Notes under the pieces: generated by a model
Database searches by the model: none
What the model was told of the DNA's origin: nothing
What the model saw: the letters and a program-made list of their open reading frames with translations, nothing else
Assembly: GCF_040739495.1 (NCBI RefSeq)
Contig: NZ_CP145261.1
Location: forward strand, 1-21,426
Direction: 5' to 3'
DNA from: Staphylococcus capitis subsp. capitis
GTDB lineage: Bacteria > Bacillota > Bacilli > Staphylococcales > Staphylococcaceae
Length of the DNA: 21,426 bases
Translations under genes and position numbers: made by a program
Part shown: positions 3,155 through 18,194 of the stretch, piece by piece
How the letters are laid out: each line of letters begins with the position of its first letter
Position numbering within the stretch: position 1 is the first letter of the stretch

Positions 3155-4765
3155 TTAACTAAATCTTTTAGTATTATATAGGGCTCTTTGATATATATTT
3201 AAAGGAAATTGAGAAATCCGTAACAATTCAATAGCGTTACGGGTATCAGCTTTACCTTCTTTAATCTTATAATCAAAGTAAATATGATTTTCTTCTATGG
3301 ATTCATTGAAGTGATAATTTTTATAATTACCTTCTAAATATTTTGCTAATTCAATATCATGAGTAGCTGCTATCACTTTATAATTTTCATAAGTATTTAG
3401 ATAACTTAGTACGGACTCAGAAGCAGCAATACGCTCAACGGTATTTGTACCTTTGAAAATTTCATCAATAAAACAATATATTGCGTTTTTACTCTTCGTA
3501 TTTAACAATCGATGAATAGATTTTAGTTCTGCCATAAAATAACTATCTCCTGATAAAACGTCATCTTTATTAGCCATGGATGTATAAACTTCTCCAGGAT
3601 GATAAATAAAGGAGTCTGCTGTAACAGTGTTTAATGTTTGAGCGAGAATAAGATTACTTGCTACTGCTTTCATAAAAGTTGATTTACCAGATGCATTTGA
3701 TCCAGTTAATAATATATTATTATTTACTTTTAAGCTATTTGATACTGCATTTTCGAGTAAAGGATGTACTAAATTTTCAAAGTCTATTTCTTTCTTTTCT
3801 ACAGTAATAGTTGGTTCACAATAATTATCTAATGTCTGTCTATACATTGCTAATGAATAGTGATTATCTAGAGTACTTATATAGTCGTAACAAGTCAGTA
3901 ATTCTTCTTGATATTTGGAGTATGTAGATTGAATTTTATGAAAGAAAAAGTAATCTAACATAAACACTTTTTTAAAGAACATGATAAAGGCGCCACCTAT
4001 ATTTTGTTCATCTGCTTTTCCAAGAAAGCCACTCAATAATCGAACTATATTAAAATGTCTAAAGTTTACATTTGTTTTTGGAGTATTTTCCAAACGATTC
4101 AGTAGATAACTTTGCTTAAGCACTTTAGCAGTATAAAAAAGCGATTTTAAATCTTGATTATAATTTCTTTTTAAAACTGCAGATAAAATAAAATTAAGTA
4201 ATACAGAGAAAAACAATGTAAAGACGCCTATAGCTGGATTAATAAGAATAATAATGATACTCAATAACGGTAAAAATGGACATAACATAAATAACGTATT
4301 TTTATTAGCAGGTTTGATTTGATCAGGAAAAATGGGATAAACTACTTTTCCTATTAAAGCAAGGTGATAGGAAACTTCTTTTCTAAATCGTTCATTATTC
4401 GTAAAGAGATTTAAAAGATTATGATGTTCAATGTGAAACATATTTCTCAATGTAGCATACCACCTCATTTCACCAATAGCCGTAAAATTAAAGTTACTTT
4501 GGTGAAATAGAGCGTCAAAGTTTAAATCAGACCACGTTTTATCATCTACTAGAAAGTTAAAATTGTTATTTCGTCGAAGTTTAAATTGATAATTAAATCG
4601 CGAATTAGGACGTATAAATTCTTCTAATGCTTTCTTCTCTTTCCATAAATTATCTATTTTAGAAATCAAATGTTTTTTGTTTAAAAAAGAAGATATCATA
4701 CTTGTAACTATAGTTAATAGAACTATTCCTAATACAAGATATATGTATACTTGATAACTATTCAT
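3155..4765 (-). CDS. Membrane-anchored MutS-type ATPase
   Basis: A 536-residue protein made of a MutS core/ATPase region without the mismatch-binding domains. Residues ~7-29 and ~159-196 are strongly hydrophobic, so it is probably membrane-bound. The C-terminal ATPase has Walker A GSNASGKST (~355-363), the MutS-type SYFMAEL segment (~408), Walker B plus FIDEIFKGTN (~432-441) and an ATHD loop (~467-470). True MutS also has N-terminal DNA-recognition domains, absent here. The start at 4765 is chosen because AAGGA precedes it; a farther ATG at 4792 lacks an SD. Related short MutS-like ATPases occur in firmicute chromosomes, usually annotated as mismatch-repair proteins, but a repair role is not supported by this architecture. 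It is flanked by the two copies of the 40-bp core repeat. Confidence 0.8.
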   Translation of the reverse strand: MNSYQVYIYLVLGIVLLTIVTSMISSFLNKKHLISKIDNLWKEKKALEEFIRPNSRFNYQFKLRRNNNFNFLVDDKTWSDLNFDALFHQSNFNFTAIGEMRWYATLRNMFHIEHHNLLNLFTNNERFRKEVSYHLALIGKVVYPIFPDQIKPANKNTLFMLCPFLPLLSIIIILINPAIGVFTLFFSVLLNFILSAVLKRNYNQDLKSLFYTAKVLKQSYLLNRLENTPKTNVNFRHFNIVRLLSGFLGKADEQNIGGAFIMFFKKVFMLDYFFFHKIQSTYSKYQEELLTCYDYISTLDNHYSLAMYRQTLDNYCEPTITVEKKEIDFENLVHPLLENAVSNSLKVNNNILLTGSNASGKSTFMKAVASNLILAQTLNTVTADSFIYHPGEVYTSMANKDDVLSGDSYFMAELKSIHRLLNTKSKNAIYCFIDEIFKGTNTVERIAASESVLSYLNTYENYKVIAATHDIELAKYLEGNYKNYHFNESIEENHIYFDYKIKEGKADTRNAIELLRISQFPLNIYQRALYNTKRFS

Positions 4766-6086: not shown

Positions 6087-6260
6087 TTATGCTCTTGAAT
6101 TACCTATAGTGTTATTATACACTATGATTTCGGACTGTTCAACCGCAGTTTTTAAGATTTCAGAAGAGGGGAGCAACGATAAATTTTTCATTTCTTCAAT
6201 ATTTTTATGTCGCTTCTCGTGATTTTTTTCATCGAACTTTTGAAACTTATTTTTACATTT
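6087..6260 (-). pseudogene. Possible C-terminal gene fragment
   Basis: A minus-strand frame without an upstream start codon runs from about 6260 to a TAA at 6087-6089. It translates to a hydrophilic stretch (KFDEKNHEKRHKNIEEMK) followed by LSLLPSSEILKTAVEQ. The composition is protein-like, and the only ATG (near the middle) has no good SD. It may be the tail of a gene lost when the rolling-circle remnant and the TnpB region were joined. I do not recognise it. Confidence 0.25.
6114..6142 (-). promoter_or_regulatory. Minus-strand promoter with palindrome over -10
   Basis: On the minus strand TTGAAC (6137-6142) and TATAAT (6114-6119) are separated by exactly 17 bp. The -10 sits between the arms of ATAGTGT/ACACTAT (6106-6112, 6119-6125). 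Transcription would run into the nested palindromes, suggesting a structured RNA. The palindrome also weakly recalls the nick region of MobV-type oriT/RSA sites. Confidence 0.4.
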
Positions 6261-6500: not shown

Positions 6501-6725
6501 GTGAACTACTCAACACTTAGCTAAACCTAAAGGTTTGACGCTTGAAGTGTGAGCTTCTCGGAAACAAAGCATACTTGATAACGTATTTCTTTGTTATCAG
6601 CGGTGTCTTTTTACTACCCGAGCTATCCCCGTAGTCCCTACGGTTCTTCTTTCTAGTTTTGACTTTGTAATCTCATACCTTCGGCCAATATATTCTGACT
6701 TGCGTTGATATCACGGTCATGATGT
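6501..6725 (-). ncRNA. omega-RNA (reRNA) scaffold of TnpB, with adjoining guide
   Basis: In TnpB elements the guide RNA is transcribed from the 3' end of tnpB through the right end, and its guide is the DNA just outside. Here the region from the last ~25 codons of tnpB to 6501 is nearly identical to the two tnpB-less derivatives, showing that this segment is the conserved functional unit. It contains several hairpins (for instance CCGTAGGGACTACGG, and AAACC/GGTTT near the end). The guide of this copy would begin TGAATCGTTGGTAGATAATC, in the interrupted host gene. Confidence 0.65.
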
Positions 6726-7795
6726 ACATGACAATTCGGACACGTCCATTGACGGACATTGAGTGGTTTCTTGCCGTCTTGGTGACCACATTCAGAACAG
6801 ATTTGACTTGATGGATACCATCTGTCTATTTTGATAACTTTTCGTCCATACCATTCTGCTTTATATTCTAACTTTCTAATAAAATGCGACCATGATACAT
6901 CTGAAATGCTTTTAGCCAGTTTACGATTACGCATCATTCCTTTTGTATTTAAGTCCTCAATACAAATAACATCGTGATTTTTGATGATACTTGTACTTAA
7001 CTTATTTAAAAAGTCTGTGCGTTGATTTTTAACCTTTTCATGTAATCGAGCTACTTTTTGTTTTTGTTTTTGATAATTTTTAGCGTCTAATAAATTCACA
7101 TTTCGTTGTTTAGCTAACAATAAACGTCTTGATAATTTACGTTGTTCTCTCGCTAATTTTTGTGACATGCTATGTGTAAATTGATGATTATCATATTTTT
7201 GACCGTCTGAACATATCGCAAAATCACTAATACCCAAATCAATACCGATGGACTGATTGGTTTTTGACATAGGTTGAATATCTTCTTTACACAATAGGGC
7301 AACATAATATTTACCACTCGCATGTTTTGAAATCGTGGCAGACCTAATATCGCCTTTGATTTTTCTGTGAAGTTTAATCTTAACGACTGACTTTAATTTA
7401 GGTAGTTTAATATATTGATTGCCAATCAACGAGATAGAACCTTTTTGATTATTCGTTGTATAACTTTGAATCGGGTGTTTTTTACTTTTGAATTTAGGAA
7501 ATCCTACGGATTTATCACGGAAAAAGTTTTGATAGGCCTTATCTAAATGTTGCTGGGCATTAGCTAAAGCTAGACTGTCTACCTCTTTTAAGAATGGATA
7601 GTCTTTTTTGTACTTGGCAGGTGTCGGTAACTTATTTTGTTTTGACGTGTCTGATTTGTACTGTTGATACGCCTTGATGCGTTCATCTAACATCAAATTA
7701 TAAACTTTACGAACACAACCAAATGATTTGGCGAAAAACACTTCTTGCGTCGTCGTTGGATATATTCTGAATTTATACGCTTTGAGCCTTTCCAT
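6653..7795 (-). CDS. tnpB: TnpB RNA-guided endonuclease (OrfB family)
   Basis: A full-length TnpB of 380 residues. The N-terminus (MERLKAYKFRIYPTTTQ) and the wedge-domain core are typical. The RuvC catalytic residues are all present: D186 in GIDLGISDF, E280 in IEDLNTKGM and D362 in DRDINASQNI. The zinc ribbon is intact (CSEC and CPNC, C333/336/352/355). The protein should therefore be an active omega-RNA-guided DNA nuclease that supports retention of IS605-type elements. ATG 7795 is chosen with SD-like GGGTGG five bases upstream; in-frame GTG 7804 would add three residues. The stop lies inside the omega-RNA, as usual. It is inserted in an unidentified gene. Confidence 0.92.
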   Translation of the reverse strand: MERLKAYKFRIYPTTTQEVFFAKSFGCVRKVYNLMLDERIKAYQQYKSDTSKQNKLPTPAKYKKDYPFLKEVDSLALANAQQHLDKAYQNFFRDKSVGFPKFKSKKHPIQSYTTNNQKGSISLIGNQYIKLPKLKSVVKIKLHRKIKGDIRSATISKHASGKYYVALLCKEDIQPMSKTNQSIGIDLGISDFAICSDGQKYDNHQFTHSMSQKLAREQRKLSRRLLLAKQRNVNLLDAKNYQKQKQKVARLHEKVKNQRTDFLNKLSTSIIKNHDVICIEDLNTKGMMRNRKLAKSISDVSWSHFIRKLEYKAEWYGRKVIKIDRWYPSSQICSECGHQDGKKPLNVRQWTCPNCHVHHDRDINASQNILAEGMRLQSQN

Positions 7796-7846
7796 CAATG
7801 CCACCCGCTTTCTATCTATGATTATTTCCTTGATTTCGTATTTTAG

Positions 7847-8241
7847 AAATCATCTTGATACTTTTCTTCTTCCTTTTCCATCAAAATTTCATAATATTCT
7901 TCATCTACATTGACTAATTCATCAAAGTGAATATGTGAAGTGAAATCAACGACTTCTTTTGTATTTTTAAAAACATCAGTTTGTAATTTCTTACATTGTC
8001 TGTGCTCATCAAACCGGAATATTACTTCTCTAACTATTCTCATATTTTCAAGGTCTAAAGTGACTTGAACTTCAATATTTTCTTCTTCTCCAATTGTTGT
8101 GTAAGCCAAAGGACATTTCAGATTTGAATCAAATAATCCTTCTTATATATTCAATGTCTCTTCAAATTCTCGCAATTTATAATTTCTTATATTTTTACAT
8201 ATGAGCAAATAATCATTAATAAATTCCTTAGTATTTGTCAT
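7847..8241 (-). pseudogene. 5' part of the interrupted gene, with nonsense codon
   Basis: The frame starts at ATG 8241 (MTNTKEFINDYLLICKNIRN) with AAGGTG eight bases upstream. It meets an in-frame TAA at codon 33 (8143-8145) and then continues open (EGLFDSNLKCPLAYTTIGEE and on) to DEEYYEILMEKEEEKYQDDF at the left edge of the TnpB element. A stop at 7843-7845 may belong to the element. The gene thus carries two lesions, a point nonsense mutation and the insertion. The product is acidic, glutamate-rich and probably cytosolic; I do not recognise the family. Its 3' half is 6296-6500. Confidence 0.6.
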
Positions 8242-8268
8242 ACTCCACACACCTTTTACAAAAATATA

Positions 8269-8373
8269 TTAATTATTTTCATGTTCATTAAGTAATGAAA
8301 ACTCTAATAACAAATTGAATAACGCTAATAAAACACTTACCACTTTTAATAGAGTTATAATCTTTTCTTTCAT
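8269..8373 (-). CDS. 34-aa hydrophobic amphipathic peptide
   Basis: MKEKIITLLKVVSVLLALFN is followed by a short leucine-rich and then acidic tail. A strong SD (AAAGGAG) lies seven bases before the ATG, and AT-rich promoter-like DNA (TATTATATCATATAA) lies upstream. Polar residues T7, K10, S13, N20 and E24 recur every 3-4 positions, so the peptide would form an amphipathic or membrane-inserted helix. Candidates are a type I toxin, a small membrane regulator or a modulin-like peptide; no known family is recognised. A terminator-like hairpin (8413-8436) separates it from the similar 28-aa peptide gene upstream in the same direction. Confidence 0.5.
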   Translation of the reverse strand: MKEKIITLLKVVSVLLALFNLLLEFSLLNEHENN

Positions 8374-8412
8374 TGTAAATACTCCTTTATATGATATAAT
8401 AAAATTAAATTG

Positions 8413-8436
8413 AAGGAGGAGCCCAATCTCCTCCTT
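8413..8436 (-). terminator. Hairpin between two peptide genes
   Basis: Perfect 9-bp stem AAGGAGGAG/CTCCTCCTT (8413-8421, 8428-8436), followed on the minus strand by CAATTTAATTTT. The stem itself contains SD and anti-SD sequences, so it may also pair with the SDs of the peptide genes. Confidence 0.65.
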
Positions 8437-8442
8437 ACAGAA

Positions 8443-8529
8443 TTATCTTAGTAATTCTGTAATTAAAGTCACGATAGCTCTTAATAAGTTTATAATACTT
8501 ATTAGGAGCTTTTTCGTGGAGTTCTTCAC
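8443..8529 (-). CDS. 28-aa amphipathic helical peptide
   Basis: GTG start with a very strong SD (AAGGAGG, 9-10 bases upstream) encodes MKNSTKKLLISIINLLRAIV followed by TLITELLR. Polar residues S11, N14, R17, T21, E25 and R28 recur every 3-4 positions with leucine/isoleucine elsewhere: a cationic amphipathic helix like phenol-soluble modulins or type I toxins. No leader is evident. A 47-codon frame overlaps it out of phase (GTG 8578 to 8435; MAVGWVLKEKLKEVVSREEL then a lysine-rich remainder) behind AAAGGAGGTGAT, a perfect anti-SD complement, so two products or translational coupling are possible. The whole region is packed with inverted repeats (AGCTC.TAATAAGT/ACTTATTA.GAGCT, ACAGAATTA/TAATTCTGT, CGTG/CACG), suggesting tight RNA-level control. 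Confidence 0.45.
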   Translation of the reverse strand: MKNSTKKLLISIINLLRAIVTLITELLR

Positions 8530-8669
8530 GAGAAACCACCTCCTTCAATTTCTCTTTCAATACCCAACCAACCGCCACATCTCGTTGGACATCACCTCCT
8601 TTACTTTTTTATTATTTATTTATTTTTTTCTGTGTTGCAAAGCCACAACAACAAGTCGTCATGAGAGAT

Positions 8670-8737
8670 GACAAGGAGACAAGCTAAAATATTTTTCGAC
8701 TGGCGTATGCCTCAAAGAAAAATTTTTGCGCCTTGTC
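8670..8737. other. Long nested stem-loop in a gene-free stretch
   Basis: GACAAGG (8670-8676) pairs with CCTTGTC (8731-8737). Inside, an A/T stem (AAAATATTTTTC against GAAAAATTTTT) leads to an apex GGC-GTAT-GCC (8702-8711). GCATCATC/GATGATGC forms a further hairpin at about 8758-8776. The stretch 8600-9000 encodes no convincing protein. Such a cruciform resembles a single-strand origin or a mobilisation site of a small rolling-circle plasmid, but no diagnostic motif is recognised. Confidence 0.45.
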
Positions 8738-8826
8738 AGATCGAATAGACTTGTTAATAGCATCATCTTTGATGATGCGTGTGAGCGTGCAACACGAAAA
8801 AATAAATAATAAAATTCCAAATAAAT

Positions 8827-8850
8827 AGGGAAGTGATTCCTCACTTCCCT
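8827..8850 (-). terminator. Hairpin terminator
   Basis: AGGGAAGTG/CACTTCCCT perfect 9-bp stem, followed on the minus strand by ATTTATTTGG and T-rich DNA. Confidence 0.55.
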
Positions 8851-8884
8851 TCATTTTCATTAGCATTTTCTTATAGAAAATGCA

Positions 8885-8915
8885 CAAGTGGCTAATGAAG
8901 CACATTAGCCACTTG
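8885..8915. terminator. Hairpin, perfect 13-bp stem
   Basis: CAAGTGGCTAATG/CATTAGCCACTTG (8885-8897, 8903-8915). A plus-strand T-run is present only 20 bp downstream, so it may be a terminator or a structural element. Confidence 0.5.
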
Positions 8916-9003
8916 CCAAAAGTATTAATCAAACTTTTTTCTCTTGATTGATCTTATTATATGTATTATGTTTTAGGTGTGCTCCATGTTTGAATTACAC
9001 TAC

Positions 9004-9035
9004 AAAAGCCTAATGAGGAATTCATTAGGCTTTTT
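9004..9035 (+). terminator. Rho-independent terminator
   Basis: AAAAGCCTAATGA/TCATTAGGCTTTT (13-bp stem) followed by TCCTTT. It isolates the upstream structured stretch from csbD. Confidence 0.8.
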
Positions 9036-9161
9036 CCTTTGTATATACTGTGGCCAAAACTAACCTATAATACAAAAAGCGTATAGTATGAATTTGTGAT
9101 GACTATATGCTATATTATCGTTACCAAACAAATTATTTCAACATTTAAGGGGGGTACAATG

Positions 9162-9341
9162 ATGGCTGAAGATAAGTTTGAACAAGCTAAAGGTAATATT
9201 AAAGAAACAGTTGGTAATGCAACGAATAATGAAGATTTAGAACAAGATGGTAAAAAAGATAAAGCGTCTGGCAAAGCAAAAGAGGTTGTTGATAACGCTA
9301 AAGATAAAGCATCCGAAGTTATTGATAAGTTCAAAAAGTAG
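9162..9341 (+). CDS. CsbD-family stress-response protein
   Basis: A 59-residue, highly charged, lysine/glutamate/aspartate-rich protein ([20 protein letters not shown], later [20 protein letters not shown]) with the repeated AKG/AKE heptads of the CsbD family. These small cytosolic, probably disordered or four-helix proteins are general-stress (SigB-dependent in Bacillus and Staphylococcus) products of unclear biochemical role. ATG 9162 is seven bases after the G-rich SD (AAGGGGGG); ATG 9159 is the alternative. I see no convincing SigB promoter. The gene ends 20 bp before an orphan omega-RNA element and is probably a mobile copy of the chromosomal gene. Confidence 0.85.
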
Positions 9342-9361
9342 AGCTTTGCAATCTTTTTTAA

Positions 9362-9664
9362 CGTAACAAGGCAGAAGTCTACGACCTCTATAGGTGGTAG
9401 ATGAATGCCTATTATTTTTATATATGATATAATCAGTCTCATCATGACCGTGATATCAACGCAAGTCAGAATATATTGGCCGAAGGTATGAGATTACAAA
9501 GTCAAAACTAGAAAGAAGAACCGTAGGGACTACGGGGATAGCTCGGGTAGTAAAAAGACACCGCTGATAACAAAGAAATACGTTATCAAGTATGCTTTGT
9601 TTCCGAGAAGCTCACACTTCAAGCGTTAAAACCGATAGGTTTAGCTAAGTGTTGAGTAGTTCAC
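9362..9664 (+). mobile_element. Deletion derivative of the TnpB element (orphan omega-RNA cassette 1)
   Basis: About 303 bp: a left end (CGTAACAAGGCAGAAGTCTA, preceded by TTTTTTAA), then a direct junction to the last 21-22 codons of tnpB (HDRDINASQ...), the omega-RNA scaffold and the right end ...GAGTAGTTCAC. It is almost identical to 17583-17884, and over the tnpB 3' end plus right end to 6501-6725. Almost all of tnpB is missing. This is the organisation of a miniature, trans-mobilised IS605-type element. The right-end hairpin has AAACCGATAGGTTT, where the other two copies have AAACCTTTAGGTTT. Confidence 0.8.
9425..9433 (+). promoter_or_regulatory. Extended -10 promoter in the left end
   Basis: TGATATAAT (9425-9433) is an extended -10. 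It is placed just upstream of the retained tnpB/omega-RNA segment; the same sequence occurs in the other derivative at 17646-17654. No good -35 is evident, which extended -10 promoters tolerate. Confidence 0.5.
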
Positions 9665-9684
9665 ACTATTAGATATATGGTATA
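9440..9684 (+). ncRNA. Orphan omega-RNA 1 with guide
   Basis: Scaffold sequence matches the omega-RNA region of the full element (copy at 6501-6725). The guide, taken as the ~16-20 nt after the right end at 9664, would begin ACTATTAGATATATGGTATA. The extents are estimates from the shared sequence. Confidence 0.5.
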
Positions 9685-9749
9685 GTGAATTTAGGTAAAT
9701 CCTAATCCTTTTCTTTTGTTCTGTTTTTTCCTAAGTATAGTTAAATTTT

Positions 9750-9775
9750 AAGCCACTCTGAACGAGTGGCTTTTC
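9750..9775 (+). terminator. Rho-independent terminator
   Basis: AAGCCACTC/GAGTGGCTT (9750-9758, 9764-9772) followed by TTCTTATT. It faces plus-strand transcripts, including any from the orphan omega-RNA. Confidence 0.7.
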
Positions 9776-10174
9776 TTATTCAATATTTTGGATGTCCTTC
9801 ATCGGTATTTCCATTGTTTCATTGCCACCTTCGTTACTTATAATCATCGATTGCTTAAGTATATCTACATTTTTAATGTAGGCTTGGTGAGCGTAAAAAT
9901 ATCCTTGCTTCCAATACGTAATAATAGCTTTTTCTCCACTATGCATTTTCCAATATACTTTTTCATTTAAAACATTGAGTTGATCATCTAAAAGCGAAGG
10001 ACGTTCTGCTTTATTTTGATCTTCCATATATTGTTCTATTTGTTGATATTGCTCAGGAATTGTCTTAAAAGCTAGCCATTTAACAAACCCTCTGCCTTTA
10101 GGAACATTAGAATCTAAATACTCTCTAGGAATCTTACGATAATCCGTTTCATCCTTATATTGTTTAGGAATCAT
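9776..10174 (-). CDS. YolD-like protein under a LexA box
   Basis: A 132-residue protein with the YolD-like layout: an N-terminal region (MIPKQYKDETDYRKIPREYL) and a C-terminal small beta-domain (KAIITYWKQGYFYAHQAYIK, then a DILKQSM/MEIPMKDI strand pair). In Firmicutes, YolD-like genes usually sit with a Y-family polymerase (UmuC/UvrX) in an SOS-induced unit; here no polymerase is adjacent. ATG 10174 has SD GAGGTG. A LexA-type box lies 25-38 bp upstream of the start. Function is unknown beyond the association with translesion synthesis. The neighbouring upstream DNA is a decayed toxin gene, so the partner gene may have been lost. Confidence 0.8.
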   Translation of the reverse strand: MIPKQYKDETDYRKIPREYLDSNVPKGRGFVKWLAFKTIPEQYQQIEQYMEDQNKAERPSLLDDQLNVLNEKVYWKMHSGEKAIITYWKQGYFYAHQAYIKNVDILKQSMIISNEGGNETMEIPMKDIQNIE

Positions 10175-11108: not shown

Positions 11109-11897
11109 GGTTCTGTTGCAAAGTAAAAAATATAGCTAACCACTAATTTATCATGTCAGTGTTCGCTTAACTTGCTAGCATGATGCTAATTTCGTGGCAT
11201 GGGGAAAATCCGTAGATCTGAAGAGACCTGCGGTTCTTTTTATATAGAGCGTAAATACATTCAATACCTTTTAAAGTATTCTTTGCCGTATTGATACTTT
11301 GATATCTTGTCTTTCTTACTTTAATATGACGGTGATCTTGCTCAATGAGGTTATTCAGATATTTCGATGTACAATGACAGTCAGGTTTAAGTTTAAAAGC
11401 TTTAATTACTTTAGCCATTGCTACCTTCGTTGAAGGTGCCTGATCTGTAATTACCTTTTGAGGTTTACCAAATTGTTTAATGAGACGTTTGATAAACGCA
11501 TATGCTGAATGATTATCTCGTTGCTTACGCAACCAAATATCTAATGTATGTCCCTCTGCATCAATGGCACGATATAAATAGCTCCATTTTCCTTTTATTT
11601 TGATGTACGTCTCATCAATACGCCATTTGTAATAAGCTTTTTTATGCTTTTTCTTCCAAATTTGATACAAAATTGGGGCATATTCTTGAACCCAACGGTA
11701 GACCGTTGAATGATGAACGTTTACACCACGTTCCCTTAATATTTCAGATATATCACGATAACTCAATGCATATCTTAGATAGTAGCCAACGGCTACAGTG
11801 ATAACATCCTTGTTAAATTGTTTATATCTGAAATAGTTCATACAGAAGACTCCTTTTTGTTAAAATTATACTATAAATTCAACTTTGCAACAGAACC
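11109..11897 (-). mobile_element. IS257/IS431 copy A
   Basis: A complete 789-bp IS6-family element with terminal inverted repeats starting GGTTCTGTTGCAAAGT and ending ACTTTGCAACAGAACC. The 8-bp flanks (GATGATCA left, TTCAAGTT right) do not match each other, so it did not arise here by simple insertion; it marks a recombination or cointegrate junction. It cuts genes on both sides (10988-11108 and 11898-12352). Confidence 0.95.
11167..11841 (-). CDS. tnp: IS257/IS431 transposase (copy A)
   Basis: A 224-residue IS6-family DDE transposase that forms cointegrates by replicative transposition. It has an N-terminal HTH (RDISEILRERGVNVHHSTVY), then the catalytic residues in RIDETYIKIKGKW (D), VITDQAPSTK (D) and NNLIEQDHRHIK (E), all present. 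The protein is identical to copy B; copy C differs at two residues. The start at 11841 follows AGGAGTC. The element supplies homology for the other two copies and so can mediate deletions and cointegrates of this plasmid. Confidence 0.95.
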   Translation of the reverse strand: MNYFRYKQFNKDVITVAVGYYLRYALSYRDISEILRERGVNVHHSTVYRWVQEYAPILYQIWKKKHKKAYYKWRIDETYIKIKGKWSYLYRAIDAEGHTLDIWLRKQRDNHSAYAFIKRLIKQFGKPQKVITDQAPSTKVAMAKVIKAFKLKPDCHCTSKYLNNLIEQDHRHIKVRKTRYQSINTAKNTLKGIECIYALYKKNRRSLQIYGFSPCHEISIMLAS

Positions 11898-12352
11898 TTC
11901 AAGTTGCAGCTAAGGGTAAAGTTGAAAATAAATCGTTTGAAACCGATACTAAAAATATAGATAGTAATGGTAATACAGTTAATTTATCCTTTAAACAACA
12001 TGATATTAGTAAGTATAAAGAAGAAGCTAAAAAAGAAAAATCAAAAGCAAAAGGGTTTATTAAAGATTATACTGATGAATTAAATGGTGCTTACAAACAT
12101 TCTGATTACCAGTATATTGAAAGATTTATCAAATCTGATAGTTCAGTTGAAAAGCATATGAAAAAAGTTGTGACTGGTAAAGCTAAAAATCATTACACAG
12201 ACTTAAAAATATTAAGTGTTGAACAAAATGATAATAAATTTACGGTAACAGCTTCAAAGAAACTAGATAAAACAACTATTAAATCAAAATATGTTTTAAA
12301 ATATGATAAAGATTTAGACGAATTTAAAATAATTGATTATACAGATATATAA
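11898..12352 (+). pseudogene. TcaA-like protein, N-terminus removed by IS257
   Basis: About 150 residues are open from the IS257 end, with no genuine start. They include a lysine-rich linker (YKEEAKKEKSKAKGFIKDYT) and an NTF2-like region (YKHSDYQYIERFIKSDSSVE ... ILSVEQNDNKFTVTASKKLD ... EFKIIDYTDI). This resembles the extracellular C-terminal domain of TcaA/YvlB-type zinc-ribbon membrane proteins of staphylococci, which affect glycopeptide sensitivity. The zinc ribbon and membrane helix would have been in the missing part, so the remnant is presumably non-functional. The assignment is moderate. Confidence 0.55.
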
Positions 12353-12356
12353 GTTA

Positions 12357-12399
12357 AGAGTCTGGGGCATAATTTTGTCTTAGGCTCTATTTTTATATA
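12357..12399 (+). terminator. Terminator after the TcaA-like fragment
   Basis: AGAGTCT/AGGCTCT (with one G-U pair) around GGGGCATAATTTTGTCT, followed by ATTTTTAT. It is a common staphylococcal intergenic terminator type, also seen at 15121-15174. Confidence 0.65.
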
Positions 12400-12522
12400 G
12401 ACAGTAGATGACTGAATTAAAATGCTCTTGTATCAAGATTCTTTTAATTCTAGTCATTATTGTTGGTGCATGACTACAAAATCTTTTTATAAAAATAAAA
12501 TTTTACCTCTCTTCATTTTTTA

Positions 12523-12551
12523 TTGACAACGAATATAAAAAAAAGTAGTAT
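12523..12551 (+). promoter_or_regulatory. Promoter of the ABC exporter operon
   Basis: TTGACA (12523-12528), 17-bp spacer, TAGTAT (12546-12551). A start near 12558 places the operator at the transcription start. Confidence 0.7.
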
Positions 12552-12561
12552 ATAGATAAAG

Positions 12562-12575
12562 TGAGTGGTCACTCA
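12562..12575 (+). promoter_or_regulatory. Probable TetR-family operator
   Basis: TGAGTGGTCACTCA is an inverted repeat (TGAGTG/CACTCA) between the -10 and the SD. Its place fits repression by the TetR-type protein encoded third in the operon. Confidence 0.7.
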
Positions 12576-12602
12576 TTTTATCGGTGTGAGGAGGAACAAT
12601 TT

Positions 12603-13307
12603 ATGATAGAGGTAAAAAATGTAAGTAAATCCTTTGGTAAACAACAAGTGGTAGATGATATATCTATATCATTTAATGCTGGTGAGGTTGTGGGTCTAAT
12701 CGGTCCTTCAGGTACTGGAAAAACGACATTAATACAGTGCATTTTAGGCATGGAGAAAATTGATGGTGGGCAAGTCACTATTCAAGAACATACAATGCCG
12801 AATAGAAAGATATTATCAAATATTGGTTATATGGCTCAAAATGATGCTTTATATAATGATTTAACTGGACGTGAAAATTTAACGTTTTTCGCAAGAATTT
12901 ATATGCGTGATAAAGAAGATATTAAAAAACGTGTGAACCTATGCAGTTCCATGGTTCAATTAGACAATGATTTAGATAAGAAAGTTGAAATGTATTCTGG
13001 TGGAATGAAACGACGCTTATCTTTAGCTATTAGCTTTTTACAAAATCCTAATATCCTTATATTAGACGAACCTACAGTTGGCATTGATCCTAAATTGCGT
13101 CAGACGATTTGGAAGGATTTAACTAAAGCAAAGGCTGAAGATAAATGCATTATAGTGACAACGCATGTATTAGATGAAGCTACACGCTGTGATAAGCTCG
13201 TATTAATGAATCAAGGAAAGATATTGGCAACGGGTACACCAGATGAAGTGAAAAAACAATATCACACAGATACGATTGAAGGCGTATTTCTGAATATGGA
13301 GGGATAA
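12603..13307 (+). CDS. ABC-2 exporter ATP-binding protein
   Basis: A 234-residue ATPase that powers the adjacent permease. It has Walker A GPSGTGKTT (34-42), a Q-loop at Q79, signature YSGGMKRR (131-138), Walker B ILILDEP (151-157), the D-loop and switch H188 (TTHVLDEA). It is of the DrrA/NatA-like drug and lipid exporter class. ATG 12603 has SD GGAGGAAC; a farther upstream TTG would run over the operator. The stop is one base from the permease ATG, so the two are co-translated. The locus sits between two IS257 copies, implying capture from a staphylococcal chromosome. Substrate unknown; resistance is possible but not shown. Confidence 0.9.
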   Translation: MIEVKNVSKSFGKQQVVDDISISFNAGEVVGLIGPSGTGKTTLIQCILGMEKIDGGQVTIQEHTMPNRKILSNIGYMAQNDALYNDLTGRENLTFFARIYMRDKEDIKKRVNLCSSMVQLDNDLDKKVEMYSGGMKRRLSLAISFLQNPNILILDEPTVGIDPKLRQTIWKDLTKAKAEDKCIIVTTHVLDEATRCDKLVLMNQGKILATGTPDEVKKQYHTDTIEGVFLNMEG

Positions 13308-13308
13308 A

Positions 13309-14439
13309 ATGAATTCGTTGCACATAGCAGGACGTATTTTCAAACAGACGATTCGAGATGTAAGAACATTGGCACTGTTACTTATTGCACCTATATTACT
13401 ATTGTCGCTACTATATTACATTTTTACAGTTGCCGATAATACGAATGGCGTAACAGTTGGGGTTCACGATGTACCAGATTCATTAATGACTGAATTACAT
13501 GATAAAGATATTCACGTTAAACATTATAAAAATGACAATGATATAAGTGATAAAATTAAAGACGACAAATTAACAGGATTTTTGCACAGTGATGGTCAAA
13601 AAGTATCAGTGACTTATGCTAACGATAATCCTACACAAGCAGGAGAACTAACAGGTGCAAATCAAAAATGGTTAATGAGTCATAACATGAATGCCATGAA
13701 AGATAATACTAATAAATTGCATCAAGCGTTAACTAAAATACAACAAAAAATGCCCGGGGATGGGGGAGACACGCCTCATCAAGATATGGCTAAACCATAT
13801 AAACTAACAACGCACTATTTATATGGTTCATCAGATTCTACGTATTTTGATATGATAAATCCTATTTTAATTGGATTTTTTGTCTTTTTCTTTACGTTTT
13901 TAATTTCTGGCATTGGCTTATTAAAAGAGCGTACTTCTGGCACATTAGAACGTTTACTTGCCTCTCCAATAAAAAGAAGTGAAATTATTTTTGGTTATGT
14001 TTTCGGTTATGGTAGTTTTAGCGTTATCCAAACAATAGTTGTCGTATTATATGCAATTTATATTCTGCATATAGACTTAGTAGGTTCGATATGGTTCGTA
14101 CTATTAACGGCAATATTAACAGCGCTTGTCGCTGTGACATTCGGTATATTATTATCTACCTTTGCTTCCTCAGAATTCCAAATGATTCAATTTATACCAT
14201 TAGTCATAGTGCCACAAGTACTATTTGCAGGCATTATACCAATTGAATCAATGAATAAAGGATTACAATACTTTTCACATATCATGCCGTTATTCTATAC
14301 CGGCCAAACGATGCAAAATATTATGATCAAGGGTTATGGATTCAACGATATTTACATTTATTTAATTGTGTTATTCGCATTTTTCATTTTCTTATTGATT
14401 TTAAATATTATAGGCATGAAAAGATATAGAAAAGTTTAG
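13309..14439 (+). CDS. ABC-2 type exporter permease
   Basis: A 376-residue ABC2_membrane_3-type permease. An N-terminal helix (~17-39, LALLLIAPILLLSLLYYIFT) is followed by a long extracellular domain (~40-175). Five further membrane helices follow (~180-202, 226-250, 258-284, 289-311, 345-368), with the conserved cytoplasmic ERTSGTLERLLASPIKRSEI motif (~206-225), typical of ABC-2 drug exporters. The start is one base after the ATPase stop. It forms the pore partner of 12603-13307, probably as a dimer with two ATPases, under control of the downstream TetR protein. Confidence 0.9.
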   Translation: MNSLHIAGRIFKQTIRDVRTLALLLIAPILLLSLLYYIFTVADNTNGVTVGVHDVPDSLMTELHDKDIHVKHYKNDNDISDKIKDDKLTGFLHSDGQKVSVTYANDNPTQAGELTGANQKWLMSHNMNAMKDNTNKLHQALTKIQQKMPGDGGDTPHQDMAKPYKLTTHYLYGSSDSTYFDMINPILIGFFVFFFTFLISGIGLLKERTSGTLERLLASPIKRSEIIFGYVFGYGSFSVIQTIVVVLYAIYILHIDLVGSIWFVLLTAILTALVAVTFGILLSTFASSEFQMIQFIPLVIVPQVLFAGIIPIESMNKGLQYFSHIMPLFYTGQTMQNIMIKGYGFNDIYIYLIVLFAFFIFLLILNIIGMKRYRKV

Positions 14440-14448
14440 TAGGTCAAT

Positions 14449-15099
14449 ATGAACCAAGATATTAAGTCATTAGTTGAAACCATTGTGCCTCAACTTGAAT
14501 ATTTAAGCGATAAACAAAGACGTGTCATAGAAAGTGCTATTGCATTATTCAGTGAACAAGGATTTGATAAAACGAGTACTAAAGAAATTGCGCAGCGTGC
14601 AAATGTCGCAGAAGGAACGGTATTTAAGCAGTTTAAAAGTAAAAGAATGTTATTATACGCAGGATTAATTCCAATTTTAAGAGATCATATCGCACCTGTA
14701 GCTGTTAAACAATTTACAGATGAATTAAACGAAGTAACCCATTTTGATGCATTTATAAATTTATTTGTAGAAAATAGATCTAAATTTATTTATGACAATA
14801 GACGTATTCTTAAAGTCATCTTAAATGAAGCTATTACTAATGAAGATTTTCAAAATATATTAGTTAATATTTTCACCCATAAATTAACGAGTAAATTAAA
14901 AGATAAAATTGAATGGTTTATCGATAATGGTGACATGCGCAATGTTAAACCTGAGTTTTTTATACGTACGGTCGTCGCACAAATTTTAAATTTAAATATC
15001 CCAATAATAGTTAATAATGACTATACTAAGGGTGAAAACTATCAGCAGTTTGCGTTATTCGTAAAAGAGGGCTTATATAGGATGTTTAAGCGAGAATAG
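14449..15099 (+). CDS. TetR-family regulator of the ABC exporter
   Basis: A 216-residue regulator. The N-terminal DNA-binding domain (~20-70) shows the TetR pattern: RRVIESAIALFSEQGFDKTS, TKEIAQRANVAEGTVFKQF, K.KRMLLYAG. The rest is an all-helical ligand and dimer domain. It lies 9 bp after the permease and ends the operon. It presumably binds the palindrome at 12562-12575 and is released by the exporter's substrate, giving autoregulation of the whole operon; this is inferred from position and family. Confidence 0.9.
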   Translation: MNQDIKSLVETIVPQLEYLSDKQRRVIESAIALFSEQGFDKTSTKEIAQRANVAEGTVFKQFKSKRMLLYAGLIPILRDHIAPVAVKQFTDELNEVTHFDAFINLFVENRSKFIYDNRRILKVILNEAITNEDFQNILVNIFTHKLTSKLKDKIEWFIDNGDMRNVKPEFFIRTVVAQILNLNIPIIVNNDYTKGENYQQFALFVKEGLYRMFKRE

Positions 15100-15120
15100 A
15101 CATCATGCAAAATATGAAAT

Positions 15121-15174
15121 AAGAGAGTAAGGGACATAATTTCTAGAGCCAAGAACTTTATGTCACAGACTCTT
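15121..15174 (+). terminator. Terminator of the ABC-TetR operon
   Basis: AAGAG.GT..GGGACATAA pairs with TTTATGTC.CAGACTCTT (15121-15139, 15157-15174), followed by AAAAATTG. It is related in sequence to the hairpin at 12357. Confidence 0.65.
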
Positions 15175-15210
15175 AAAAATTGTGAATTAATGTTACTCAT
15201 TTGGAAATTA

Positions 15211-15240
15211 TTTACTATCGTGATAATATATAGTTATAAT
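15211..15240 (+). promoter_or_regulatory. Promoter of SprF-like RNA 1
   Basis: TTTACT (15211-15216), 18-bp spacer, TATAAT (15235-15240), immediately upstream of the SprF-like sequence. Confidence 0.6.
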
Positions 15241-15246
15241 AAACGT

Positions 15247-15388
15247 ATTTAGAAATACGAAAAAGAGCAACATGCTAATACATGTCGCCCTAGTGAGCCT
15301 GTTAAAAAGACAGTGGCTTGTATTTTACTAATAAGATTAAAATAACCTCTAGTTACTCGCCAAAGTATATGCTAGATGGTTATTTTTT
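15247..15388 (+). ncRNA. SprF-like antitoxin RNA, partner lost
   Basis: It contains the SprF hallmarks: a hairpin over AACATGCTAATACATGT, the block GTGAGCCTGTTAAAAAGACA, and a distal hairpin ATAACC.../...GGTTATTTTTTTT that doubles as terminator. SprF RNAs are cis-antisense antitoxins of SprG membrane toxins, which overlap at their 3' ends on the other strand. Here the sprG gene that should follow is cut off by IS257 copy B at 15391, so the RNA is an orphan. Homology is recognised from memory of S. aureus SprF1. Confidence 0.65.
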
Positions 15389-15390
15389 TT

Positions 15391-16179
15391 GGTTCTGTTG
15401 CAAAGTAAAAAATATAGCTAACCACTAATTTATCATGTCAGTGTTCGCTTAACTTGCTAGCATGATGCTAATTTCGTGGCATGGGGAAAATCCGTAGATC
15501 TGAAGAGACCTGCGGTTCTTTTTATATAGAGCGTAAATACATTCAATACCTTTTAAAGTATTCTTTGCCGTATTGATACTTTGATATCTTGTCTTTCTTA
15601 CTTTAATATGACGGTGATCTTGCTCAATGAGGTTATTCAGATATTTCGATGTACAATGACAGTCAGGTTTAAGTTTAAAAGCTTTAATTACTTTAGCCAT
15701 TGCTACCTTCGTTGAAGGTGCCTGATCTGTAATTACCTTTTGAGGTTTACCAAATTGTTTAATGAGACGTTTGATAAACGCATATGCTGAATGATTATCT
15801 CGTTGCTTACGCAACCAAATATCTAATGTATGTCCCTCTGCATCAATGGCACGATATAAATAGCTCCATTTTCCTTTTATTTTGATGTACGTCTCATCAA
15901 TACGCCATTTGTAATAAGCTTTTTTATGCTTTTTCTTCCAAATTTGATACAAAATTGGGGCATATTCTTGAACCCAACGGTAGACCGTTGAATGATGAAC
16001 GTTTACACCACGTTCCCTTAATATTTCAGATATATCACGATAACTCAATGCATATCTTAGATAGTAGCCAACGGCTACAGTGATAACATCCTTGTTAAAT
16101 TGTTTATATCTGAAATAGTTCATACAGAAGACTCCTTTTTGTTAAAATTATACTATAAATTCAACTTTGCAACAGAACC
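15391..16179 (-). mobile_element. IS257/IS431 copy B
   Basis: A 789-bp element, apparently the same as copy A over its length and in the same orientation. Flanks are TTTTTTTT and AAAAATAG, not a direct repeat. With copy A it brackets the ABC-TetR segment like a composite unit. Its left end abuts the terminator of the SprF-like RNA. Confidence 0.95.
15449..16123 (-). CDS. tnp: IS257/IS431 transposase (copy B)
   Basis: A 224-residue IS6-family transposase with the same sequence as copy A and an intact DDE triad. As the two copies are direct repeats ~3.5 kb apart, homologous recombination or replicative transposition between them can excise or move the exporter operon. Confidence 0.95.
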   Translation of the reverse strand: MNYFRYKQFNKDVITVAVGYYLRYALSYRDISEILRERGVNVHHSTVYRWVQEYAPILYQIWKKKHKKAYYKWRIDETYIKIKGKWSYLYRAIDAEGHTLDIWLRKQRDNHSAYAFIKRLIKQFGKPQKVITDQAPSTKVAMAKVIKAFKLKPDCHCTSKYLNNLIEQDHRHIKVRKTRYQSINTAKNTLKGIECIYALYKKNRRSLQIYGFSPCHEISIMLAS

Positions 16180-16319
16180 AAAAATAGTATCTTAATAATC
16201 TTCGTTTTTGAAACAGATGTATAGCTAAGTAATAATGGATCTTTGTTTCATCGATCTTATCTTACATAAAGTCATAAAAATTAAGCATTTTAAAACAATT
16301 TCTATTTTTTTACTTACAA

Positions 16320-16380
16320 GTATCATATCTTGTATTATTAACAAAGTATTATTTTACCTTTACTTATTGAGATATGATAC
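16320..16380. other. Inverted repeat upstream of the resolvase (candidate res site)
   Basis: GTATCATATCT (16320-16330) and AGATATGATAC (16370-16380) are perfect 11-bp inverted arms separated by 39 bp, ending 47 bp before the resolvase start. Serine resolvases bind such repeats next to their own gene, where they resolve plasmid dimers and repress transcription. The rest of 16180-16427 holds no gene. Confidence 0.5.
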
Positions 16381-16427
16381 AGTAATAGTGAAACAAATAA
16401 CAAAATTTAATAAAGCGTGGTGTACAA

Positions 16428-16976
16428 ATGGCTAAAATTGGTTACGCTCGTGTTTCAACACAAGATCAAAGTTTAGATAGCCAAATCGATACTTTAAAAA
16501 ACTTTGGCTGTTCAAAAATATTTAAAGAAAAAGTGAGTGGTCGAAAAACGAAAAGATCAGAGTTAGACAAATGTCTAGAGTATTTACGTGAAGGAGATAC
16601 ATTAGTTGTTTATAAACTTGATCGTTTAGGTCGAACAACAAAACAGTTAATAGAATTGGCTCAATGGTTAGAAAACAATAACATCGAATTACAGATTATT
16701 GATATGAATATCAATACTAAGGATGCAATGGGAAAAATGTTTTTTACGATGATGAGTGCTTTTGCTGAACTCGAAGCCAATCTTTTAAGCGAACGTACTA
16801 AAAAGGGGCTTGCTTCTGCAAGAGCGAGAGGGCGCGTCGGTGGACGTCCACCCATGCCTGATCATAAAAAAAGAGAAATTAAGTTCCTATATGATGAACA
16901 AAAAATGACCGGTGAACAAATAGCCGAAGCTACTGGCGTAAGTAGGTCAACTGTATATCGTGTAATCAAAAAATAA
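16428..16976 (+). CDS. Serine recombinase (resolvase/invertase)
   Basis: A 182-residue small serine recombinase. The catalytic serine is S10 in GYARVSTQDQ, with R8 and the motif YKLDRLGRTTKQL (~64-76). The long E helix (MGKMFFTMMSAFAELEANLL) and a C-terminal Hin-type HTH (KMTGEQIAEATGVSRSTVYR) complete it. Such plasmid-borne enzymes resolve dimers or invert segments, acting on the inverted repeat upstream. The SD is weak (GTGGTG). IS257 copy B lies 250 bp upstream, and a terminator follows at once. It is closest to the Bin3/Res group of staphylococcal plasmids. Confidence 0.88.
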   Translation: MAKIGYARVSTQDQSLDSQIDTLKNFGCSKIFKEKVSGRKTKRSELDKCLEYLREGDTLVVYKLDRLGRTTKQLIELAQWLENNNIELQIIDMNINTKDAMGKMFFTMMSAFAELEANLLSERTKKGLASARARGRVGGRPPMPDHKKREIKFLYDEQKMTGEQIAEATGVSRSTVYRVIKK

Positions 16977-16980
16977 AAAT

Positions 16981-17009
16981 AATGAAAGATATTTTATAAT
17001 TCTTTCATT
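16981..17009 (+). terminator. Terminator of the resolvase gene
   Basis: AATGAAAGA/TCTTTCATT perfect stem (16981-16989, 17001-17009), followed by TTACT. Confidence 0.6.
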
Positions 17010-17144
17010 TTACTATGTATTAAAGTTGTATCTTTATTTTTTGTGTTTAACTTCTTATTCAAACGTTACCTTTTTATTTGTAAATTTTTAAATAGGATGT
17101 AATAATACTTTTGTATGACACAAAACAAAGAGGTGAAATACATA

Positions 17145-17246
17145 ATGGAAAACGTAGTTAATTTTGTAAAAAAATTAATCGAAGAAGTTCAAAAATTAAT
17201 CAACGGTGGCTCTTCTTCATCTGATAGTGATAATACTTCTAAATAA
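17145..17246 (+). CDS. 33-aa amphipathic peptide, phenol-soluble-modulin-like
   Basis: MENVVNFVKKLIEEVQKLIN is followed by GGSSSSDSDNTSK. The first 20 residues form an ideal amphipathic helix (V4, V5, F7, V8, L11, I12, V15, L18 and I19 on one face; K, E and Q on the other), like alpha-type phenol-soluble modulins, which begin with formyl-Met and have no leader. The serine/aspartate tail is unusual for them. SD AGAGGTG lies eight bases before the ATG, and a clean terminator follows. It is a compact single-gene unit between the resolvase and the SprF/SprG remnants. Alternatives are a type I toxin or a bacteriocin-like peptide. No exact family match is recognised. Confidence 0.6.
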   Translation: MENVVNFVKKLIEEVQKLINGGSSSSDSDNTSK

Positions 17247-17252
17247 TAATTT

Positions 17253-17278
17253 AGACCACTCTTTATGAGTGGTCTTTT
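17253..17278 (+). terminator. Terminator of the modulin-like gene
   Basis: AGACCACTC/GAGTGGTCT perfect 9-bp stem with TTTGAT tail. Confidence 0.85.
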
Positions 17279-17301
17279 GATATAAATATTTATTAAAATA
17301 A

Positions 17302-17330
17302 TTTACAAATAGTATTAAACAGTATATACT
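17302..17330 (+). promoter_or_regulatory. Promoter of SprF-like RNA 2
   Basis: TTTACA (17302-17307), 17-bp spacer, TATACT (17325-17330). Confidence 0.65.
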
Positions 17331-17335
17331 AAAGA

Positions 17336-17459
17336 TGTAAAAGAAAAGACACAAGTGCTGATAACACTCGTGCCTTAGTAAGCCCGTTAAAAAGACGGTG
17401 ACTTTTCAGTGCTTTTAACCATTCTTCCTACTCGTCAAAAGTTGGGATGGTTATTTTTT
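17336..17459 (+). ncRNA. SprF-like antitoxin RNA 2
   Basis: A complete unit: promoter, hairpin GGCACGAG/CTTGTGxC-like (CACAAGTGCTGATAACACTC), the conserved AGTAAGCCCGTTAAAAAGAC block, and the terminator hairpin AACCATTC...GATGGTTATTTTTT. It overlaps the tail of a truncated sprG on the opposite strand (17428-17497), as expected for this type I system. Confidence 0.7.
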
Positions 17460-17497
17460 GGCTTAATCTAATAAGCTCGATTACTAGACCAATGAAA
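17428..17497 (-). pseudogene. Truncated sprG toxin, C-terminal tail
   Basis: The minus-strand frame reads IGLVIELIRLSQKITIPTFD then E and stop. The first part matches the C-terminal helix of SprG-type toxins (IGLVIKLIELS in S. aureus). The upstream part of the gene is replaced by a second SprF copy (from ~17497), indicating recombination between tandem modules. Confidence 0.6.
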
Positions 17498-17574
17498 ATG
17501 TAAAAGAAAAGGCACAAGTGCTGCTAACACTCGTGCCTTAGTAAGCCCGTTAAAAAGACGGTAGCCTAAATTAA
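17497..17574 (+). ncRNA. SprF-like RNA 3, promoterless and 3'-truncated
   Basis: It is a near-copy of 17336-17408 (TGTAAAAGAAAAGGCACAAG, then the AGTAAGCCCGTTAAAAAGAC block). It lacks its own promoter and terminator because the orphan omega-RNA element begins at about 17583. Originally it would have been antisense to the sprG at 17865-17957. Confidence 0.6.
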
Positions 17575-17582
17575 TTTTTTAA

Positions 17583-17884
17583 CGTAACAAGGCAGAAGTC
17601 TACGACCTCTATAGGTGGTAGATGAATGCCTATTATTTTTATATATGATATAATCAGTCTCATCATGACCGTGATATCAACGCAAGTCAGAATATATTGG
17701 CCGAAGGTATGAGATTACAAAGTCAAAACTAGAAAGAAGAACCGTAGGGACTACGGGGATAGCTCGGGTAGTAAAAAGACACCGCTGATAACAAAGAAAT
17801 ACGTTATCAAGTATGCTTTGTTTCCGAGAAGCTCACACTTCAAGCGTCAAACCTTTAGGTTTAGCTAAGTGTTGAGTAGTTCAC
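17583..17884 (+). mobile_element. Deletion derivative of the TnpB element (orphan omega-RNA cassette 2)
   Basis: A 302-bp near-identical copy of 9362-9664, with the same left end after TTTTTTAA and right end GAGTAGTTCAC. The right-end hairpin variant agrees with the full-length TnpB element. Removing it rejoins the sprF side to the sprG side and restores a sprG frame ending ELIKKLI-stop (if the TTTTTTAA belongs to the target). The empty site is therefore readable, and insertion without target duplication is supported. Confidence 0.8.
17646..17654 (+). promoter_or_regulatory. Extended -10 promoter in the left end
   Basis: TGATATAAT, identical in sequence and place to the one in the first derivative (9425-9433), facing the omega-RNA. 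Confidence 0.5.
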
Positions 17885-17957: not shown

Positions 17958-18007
17958 AAGGCGTCTCCTTTCTAAAGATTTGATTGATACCACCATAGGC
18001 ATCACAC

Positions 18008-18155: not shown

Positions 18156-18194
18156 TAAACATTTATAATAGATGTAACGAGATATCAAAAAAAT

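Follow-up and report, generated by a model that had tools for sequence, protein, structure and literature searches.

Can a transposon copy that has lost both of its genes go on supplying guides to a nuclease encoded elsewhere on the same plasmid? The question is raised by a 21,426-nt stretch of a Staphylococcus capitis plasmid (hereafter the window, meaning the whole stretch of DNA analysed), in which an earlier note, made from the letters alone, had described two elements that keep an ωRNA unit without tnpB. In every stretch compared, the window is 100% identical to the S. capitis plasmid NZ_CP103050.1 (DSM 20326, 21,427 bp), and an Rfam search of it matched only an Fst antitoxin at gathering score.

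Anatomy of the cassettes

Two TnpB-less cassettes are present where the earlier note had placed them, at 9362–9664 (303 bp) and 17583–17884 (302 bp). Each consists, in order, of a left end, an extended −10 element (TGATATAAT), two odd bases, the 3′ end of tnpB, the ωRNA scaffold and a GTTCAC right end; its own flank is its guide, and both protein genes, tnpA and tnpB, are gone.

9357–9361, + strand: TTTAA on the left flank of cassette 1, the insertion target and putative TAM; the empty site in AP031468.1 reads TTTTTTAA/ACTATTAG
9362–9437, + strand: left end of cassette 1 with a subterminal hairpin at about 9370–9409; 76/76 identical to the parental left end in AP031468.1
9425–9433, + strand: extended −10 TGATATAAT of cassette 1, read in the sequence and present in the parent too; not listed by a consensus scan
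9438–9439, + strand: deletion junction, two bases (CT) matching neither the parental left end nor tnpB, from comparison with the parent
9440–9511, + strand: last 23 tnpB codons and stop, cassette 1; tblastn 100% over residues 361–383
9518–9664, + strand: ωRNA scaffold and right end of cassette 1; 163.9 bits with covariance model R1, this sequence being among those used to build R1; aligned with 17 relatives
9665–9684, + strand: guide (flank) of cassette 1; 20/20 with TTTTAA at the AP031468.1 empty site
17578–17582, + strand: TTTAA left of cassette 2, read in the sequence
17583–17658, + strand: left end of cassette 2 with the extended −10 at 17646–17654; identical to cassette 1
17661–17732, + strand: last 23 tnpB codons and stop, cassette 2, by tblastn
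17739–17884, + strand: ωRNA scaffold and right end of cassette 2; identical to the scaffold of the tnpB copy; R1 160.7 bits
17885–17904, + strand: guide (flank) of cassette 2, inside a pepG1 toxin locus; 16/16 (19/20) with ATTTAA in S. pasteuri pSNJS701

The extended −10 that the earlier note had placed in the left ends can be read in both of them, at the positions given above, and the copies do retain a promoter-like left end and a complete guide-RNA unit; beyond what the note had claimed, tnpA is lost as well. The junction into tnpB is as precise as described, but it falls at codon 361 of 383 and leaves 23 codons where about 22 had been counted. A sigma-70 consensus scan of 7700–9800 did not list the TGATATAAT site, because its −35 is weak.

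The cassettes share 277 identical nt, and cassette 2 is identical to the tnpB copy over 225 nt; with the 76/76-nt left end, these identities rule out chance as the source of the similarity, and we regard the anatomy of the cassettes as proven. Cassettes 1 and 2 differ by 3 substitutions and 1 indel, all confined to some 13 nt in the terminal hairpin of the right end. At this hairpin cassette 1 (9628–9640) is of the type found in a second Staphylococcus species (genome G012), and cassette 2 (17848–17860) is of the type of the parent and the tnpB copy. Such clustering resembles the outcome of recombination or gene conversion.

Origin by internal deletion

S. capitis plasmid pSKB0123-1 (AP031468.1) carries a full ISEfa4-family IS200/IS605 copy (left end, tnpA, tnpB, right end) with a Y1 tnpA. 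Its left end matches that of the cassettes without a difference, its right end is 98–100% identical to theirs, its tnpB is 99.2% identical to the tnpB of the window, and the scaffold and right end are the same. The cassettes can therefore be accounted for by one internal deletion, which removed tnpA and most of tnpB and was later present at two loci; judged by these identities, they are internal-deletion copies of an ISEfa4-family IS200/IS605 element.

The csbD/yolD-like locus of AP031468.1 is an empty site and reads TTTTTTAA/ACTATTAGATATATGG, which fixes the insertion point of cassette 1 behind TTTAA, without target duplication. In a second plasmid, NZ_CP110785.1, the same site is occupied by cassette 1, which differs there at 1 of 303 nt. 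The search for an empty site of cassette 2 gave diverged relatives with extra sequence and nothing closer. The features of a non-autonomous IS200/IS605 element (MITE or PATE) are thus in place: left and right ends of an autonomous relative, insertion of cassette 1 3′ of a short fixed target without duplicating it, no transposase or nuclease gene inside apart from the 23 tnpB codons, and occupation of two loci. Taken together, the comparisons establish that the cassettes derive from a tnpA-tnpB element by one internal deletion, that at least one inserted cleanly behind TTTAA, and that both keep a full scaffold matching that of the resident TnpB.

AP031468.1 also contains, at 6088–6152 (L037), a near-perfect palindrome of two inverted left-end halves with TTTAA on both sides, a 55-bp palindromic copy that is apparently a minimal hairpin element. 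Elsewhere in the window, 11109–19900 holds three IS257 copies, the first two of which enclose an ABC transporter pair and a TetR-type regulator.

The site of cassette 2 offers an explanation in which the guide RNA is irrelevant: the cassette would matter solely by altering the pepG1 type I toxin-antitoxin locus. The annotated pepG1 (record position 3421–3552) overlaps the right end of cassette 2, and about 56 bp that lie between the two TTTAA-type flanks in pCAPBN21 are absent at cassette 2, so the left flank there seems deleted. Cassette 1, which lies between csbD and yolD-like genes, is left unexplained by such a local effect, and we hold it most improbable as the whole account. Around the same locus, a pepG1-type toxin frame at 17865–17996 (− strand) has its end supplied by the right end of cassette 2, a neighbouring pCAPBN21 stretch with a terminator-like hairpin is missing beside this frame, and a 68-bp type I toxin-antitoxin segment is duplicated (17332–17399 and 17495–17562).

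The resident TnpB and the missing transposase

The earlier note had named one intact TnpB with all RuvC residues, and this holds for the whole genome (4 contigs, 2.48 Mb), in which the protein of the window is the single PF07282 match.

6653–7804, − strand: intact tnpB, 383 aa from GTG (380 aa as annotated in NZ_CP103050.1); Pfam OrfB_IS605, Cas12f1-like_TNB and HTH_OrfB, PDB TnpB matches, motifs
6501–6646, − strand: ωRNA scaffold and right end of the tnpB copy; R1 160.7 bits
6481–6500, − strand: guide of the tnpB copy, the flank of its right end
7808–7841, − strand: tnpA 3′-end remnant upstream of tnpB, the left end and remaining tnpA being absent; comparison with the parent and NZ_CP110785.1

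The motifs GIDLG, IEDLN and HDRD and two CxxC pairs are present, and the protein matches the solved TnpB structure 8h1j at E 5.9e-77. TldR proteins, nuclease-dead TnpB repressors that work with a guide RNA, are defined by loss of RuvC residues; TldR was ruled out as an identity for this protein, the only TnpB, since its RuvC motifs are intact.

The tnpB copy is itself truncated and promoterless. It has no left end, keeps about 30 nt of tnpA, and breaks off near 7840/7841 relative to NZ_CP110785.1. When an empty site of this copy was sought in NZ_CP110785.1, the result was a diverged region in which TCTTAG and some 1.4 kb of unrelated sequence stand. The Y1 TnpA of the AP031468.1 parent has no counterpart here: searching the 4-contig, 2.48-Mb genome gave no Y1 transposase match, with positive controls detected. 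Nothing should therefore move now in this strain, and with three scaffolds, one nuclease and no mover the system would be frozen. The earlier note had spoken of a small guide array made by transposition; because no transposase was found, the array was not built by movement in this strain.

Scaffold RNA

The right end of the resident tnpB copy carries the same 146-nt scaffold as cassette 2, and the scaffold of cassette 1 departs from it solely near the terminal hairpin; it is therefore very likely that the one TnpB can accept the cassette scaffolds. An alignment of scaffolds from Staphylococcus, Macrococcoides and Enterococcus yields a common fold of 41 pairs, 9 of them with double changes, and a cassette transcript starting at 9443 has a better fold than all but one of 200 shuffled versions (z −2.36). 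Covariance model R1, which like model R2 below was built in this analysis from few related sequences, found scaffolds in 11 of 84 Staphylococcus genomes and, with at most the best seven candidates per genome considered in the class search, in 96 of 398 Bacilli genomes. By tblastn, a TnpB adjoins the scaffold at 21 of 28 class loci (L068–L095); of the 7 without one, 2 run off the end of a contig. Two marks of a TnpB ωRNA can be seen here: a conserved scaffold that ends at the right end and lies next to tnpB in relatives, followed by a flank-derived guide for which a matching target with the TAM beside it exists.

With three scaffolds to one TnpB gene, the orphan ωRNAs might act as decoys, titrating TnpB and shielding elements or host from the nuclease and directing no cuts. 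Decoy and guide are indistinguishable from sequence. Against decoys stand the perfect or near-perfect TAM-flanked targets on related plasmids described below, although targets of this kind would accompany every insertion into a conserved locus; we consider this explanation very unlikely.

Guides, TAM and targets

TTTAA lies on the left flank of both cassettes, of the AP031468.1 copy and of the cassette in G012, and from this recurrence we infer that it is the TAM. Nine loci and the window were scanned for guide targets. The guide of cassette 1 matches 20/20 at the AP031468.1 empty site, behind TTTTAA, and that of cassette 2 matches 16/16 (19/20) in the pepG1 locus of S. pasteuri pSNJS701, behind ATTTAA; S. 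epidermidis NZ_CP121500.1 and S. capitis pCAPBN21 match it with a single mismatch over 16 nt. Within the window itself, the orphan guides have no TTTAA-flanked match at up to 3 mismatches in 16, and the guide of the tnpB copy has no TAM-flanked match in the nine loci and the window. Matches of this kind would follow from insertion into any conserved locus and demonstrate no more than the existence of targets. Of the earlier proposal of one nuclease with three guides, the three different guides are there, cassette 2 and the tnpB copy have a scaffold in common, and that of cassette 1 departs from it only near the terminal hairpin.

Relatives in Staphylococcus and on plasmids

Among 84 Staphylococcus species genomes, the cassette has a match of some kind in 9 (the strain's own included); full left-end-plus-scaffold cassettes are confined to the strain's own genome and G012. 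Of 72,556 plasmid records, 638 have any match and 2 match at least 80% of the cassette, one of these being the same plasmid. The G012 cassette has a different junction, just upstream of the scaffold, with the same −10, a left end 91% identical and a scaffold 97% identical; it arose by an independent deletion. G012 has no match to the TnpB of the window, one distant PF07282 match and one Y1 match. Decayed elements in G041 have tnpB cut after about codon 36, with the scaffold kept and with stops and frameshifts, and G012 holds decayed pieces besides its full cassette. The earlier note had considered that genome searches might show only rare decaying fragments: rarity and decay are both found, but not to the exclusion of full cassettes, as the two genomes above attest.

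In genomes G062 (L050) and G063 (L049) a scaffold-like stretch of about 102 nt, ending in GTTCAC, occupies the same place, and neither has a PF07282 protein; it may be either a fossil or an independent small RNA. Many S. epidermidis plasmids carry a diverged left-end-like stretch between two genes; with no right end in the vicinity, these stretches (L035, L036, L038 and similar) were classed as solo left ends and left out of the comparison.

The rarity bears on a serious rival to any use of the guides in trans, namely that the cassettes are inert miniature elements. Their scaffold would remain only through recent deletion and through overlap of the element's 3′ end with the right end needed for transposition, and any RNA would have no trans function. 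The near identity of the cassettes, the scarcity of full ones and the decayed pieces in G041 and G012 all fit such a by-product. So does their persistence where a cognate TnpB is missing in cis: on NZ_CP110785.1, cassette 1 is the sole match to the query, and G012 has no match to the TnpB of the window. In the other direction, two independent deletions both retained the −10 and the whole scaffold. Inertness is a strong contender, which we place somewhat below an even chance in view also of the elements described next.

Guide-only elements with a leader RNA in Bacilli

Orphan R1 matches in unrelated Bacilli led to multi-copy elements in which a left-end hairpin is followed by a conserved leader RNA and then the scaffold. 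The leader contains boxA-like motifs (GTTCTTTGAAAACTG and GCGAAAACCAAGC). A query with the left end and leader, scoring the best two candidates per genome, gave 30 loci, 14 of them with a downstream scaffold and no TnpB. A leader model (R2) found 40 of 398 Bacilli genomes, in 24 genera, among the best seven or fewer candidates per genome. In 30 R2 loci that were read, one per genome, R1 was found immediately after the leader in 27, and none of the 30 had a TnpB nearby. A pattern scan of named genomes gave 86 stretches with leader-type elements; 80 stretches (81 matches) were read, and R1 follows in 68. The remaining 13 comprise 7 in which the scaffold is visible by eye, 2 with part of it, 2 that are cut off and 2 that lack it. 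No TnpB lies within 2 kb of any of the 81, as judged by an HMM built from 13 TnpBs. Hosts include Exiguobacterium, Seinonella, Lederbergia, Heyndrickxia, Domibacillus, Geobacillus and Clostridium tepidiprofundi. Loci L178–L207 and L211–L290, from Bacilli and Clostridia genomes, can be described as non-coding, multi-copy IS605-type elements with the leader RNA fused to the ωRNA scaffold and no TnpB nearby. Those tested against Rfam (L096–L101) had no match at E 0.01.

Across 24 distinct scaffolds from TnpB-free copies, pairing is kept in 96.2% of cells, and double changes occur at 15 of 31 pairs; 0 of 500 shuffles reached either value. The alignment was fitted to the model's structure, one pair failed in 14 of its 24 rows, and among the five covariation measures the number of pair types did not rise above the shuffles (131/500). 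A PF07282 protein is encoded in 40 of 40 leader-bearing genomes vs 171 of 358 others (Fisher p 1.8e-12, uncorrected for kinship); this co-occurrence may merely reflect a need for TnpA. Within the Exiguobacterium group, TnpB-linked scaffolds are 77, 88, 90, 90 and 94% identical to a guide-only element of the same genome, with identities equally high between genomes as within them. The TnpB-linked scaffolds sampled in G302 and G363 are at most 73% and 69% identical to the resident guide-only elements, and a first comparison, with one co-resident TnpB-linked scaffold per genome, gave 58–73% with no within-genome preference.

The breadth of these TnpB-free elements, with their covarying pairs, tells against inert remnants. 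Genome G239 has two IS605-type copies of about 180 bp (L168 and L169) at different sites, with both ends and no scaffold match, so that the scaffold seems dispensable for movement; with the 55-bp palindrome of AP031468.1, they suggest that a far shorter sequence suffices. The R2 leader has no match in the S. capitis genome, and its cassettes are without a conserved leader.

We tentatively suggest, at somewhat under even confidence, that guide-only transposons are a real and widespread class. Such elements would have shed both genes and kept a stand-alone ωRNA gene, to which many Bacilli add a boxA-like leader, and would rely on borrowed TnpA for movement and on borrowed TnpB for the destruction of their own empty sites. 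One nuclease would then serve dispersed, self-reprogramming guides, amounting on plasmids to an attack on related element-free plasmids, and the S. capitis cassettes would be a newborn independent instance.

A model for guide use in trans

For the S. capitis plasmid itself, we favour the view that the cassettes are non-autonomous guide-only elements that borrow a transposase and a nuclease and enjoy TnpB-driven retention, a reading to which we give an even chance. The TnpA of another element would have moved the cassettes. Transcription from the left end through the scaffold into the flank would produce the guide, and the TnpB of the plasmid would use all three guides. As each guide would point at its own cassette's empty site, copies of the plasmid, or related plasmids, that lack the cassette would be cut by TnpB, and a guide-only element would thereby gain the retention of a gene drive on plasmids. 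The model rests on published mechanisms: the ωRNA of TnpB is the 3′ end of tnpB plus right end plus flank (PMC8612924), TnpB matures its ωRNA from its own mRNA (PMC10278001), and TnpB drives insertion sequences through plasmids as a plasmid gene drive (PMC11870625).

Speaking for guide use in trans are the parent, the deletion and the empty site, a single TnpB with intact motifs and the same scaffold, and the fact that both orphan guides have targets with a TAM beside them on other plasmids of staphylococci. The independently deleted cassette of G012, the comparable guide-only elements of other Bacilli with their TnpB co-occurrence, the high scaffold identities in the Exiguobacterium group and the scaffold-free copies of G239 count on the same side. 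It is plausible that the orphan guides act in trans: they carry the scaffold of the resident TnpB itself, they have targets, and similar elements are found repeatedly. On the other side, the cassettes are too young to show selection, since cassette 1 differs by so little between plasmids and the two cassettes share so long an identical run. Without TnpA, moreover, no fresh empty sites arise in this strain. Also on this side are the −10 that the promoter scan passed over, cassettes that persist with no cognate TnpB in cis, the low scaffold identities in G302 and G363, and the lack of the conserved leader in S. capitis.

If orphan ωRNAs work in trans, TnpB is not tied to one guide per element. 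A resident nuclease would gain further guides from gene-less transposon copies. Such an arrangement would stand, without having been planned, midway between transposon nucleases guided in cis and CRISPR-like systems with many guides, and would give plasmids a simple means of acting against one another. The model also predicts why non-coding IS605 elements often keep a whole guide-RNA gene that is dispensable in shorter relatives.

Comparison with known systems

A literature search found no paper on TnpB-less ωRNA elements or the leader RNA, which does not establish their absence from print. Stand-alone trans-acting IscB ωRNAs in Ktedonobacter racemifer and PATEs in Geobacillus were reportedly described by Altae-Tran in 2021 and Meers in 2023; they resemble the cassettes in that the guide RNA or the transposon ends have no nuclease gene beside them. 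Rfam Ref70 (Enterococcus sRNA 70) gives a full-length but weak match to the scaffold (35.5–36.9 bits, E 0.003–0.007), far below its gathering score of 115, which makes it a lead and not a membership.

The AP031468.1 ISEfa4-family element shares with the cassettes the 76-nt left end, the scaffold and the TTTAA target, but keeps tnpA and tnpB, both of which the cassettes lost. The anatomy of the cassettes has a precedent in a PATE-like element of Halanaerobium hydrogeniformans of about 271 nt, with a 28-nt left end, no tnpA, the last 58 nt of tnpB and the entire 160-nt right end (PMC7290912). The architecture is almost the same, but that element is single-copy and, in section 3.8 of the 2020 description, is presented as ends only, with no reference to a guide RNA and no promoter or guide analysis (PMC7290912). 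In ISDra2, the TnpB ωRNA (reRNA) likewise consists of the tnpB 3′ end, the right end and about 16 nt of flank, and the TAM equals the transposon target; its tnpB is in cis, however, and its TAM is TTGAT where TTTAA is the putative one here (PMC8612924). In the TnpB plasmid gene drive, cutting of IS-free plasmid copies favours IS-bearing plasmids, much as proposed for the cassettes; the tests there had TnpB and guide in one element and not guide-only copies such as the S. capitis cassettes (PMC11870625).
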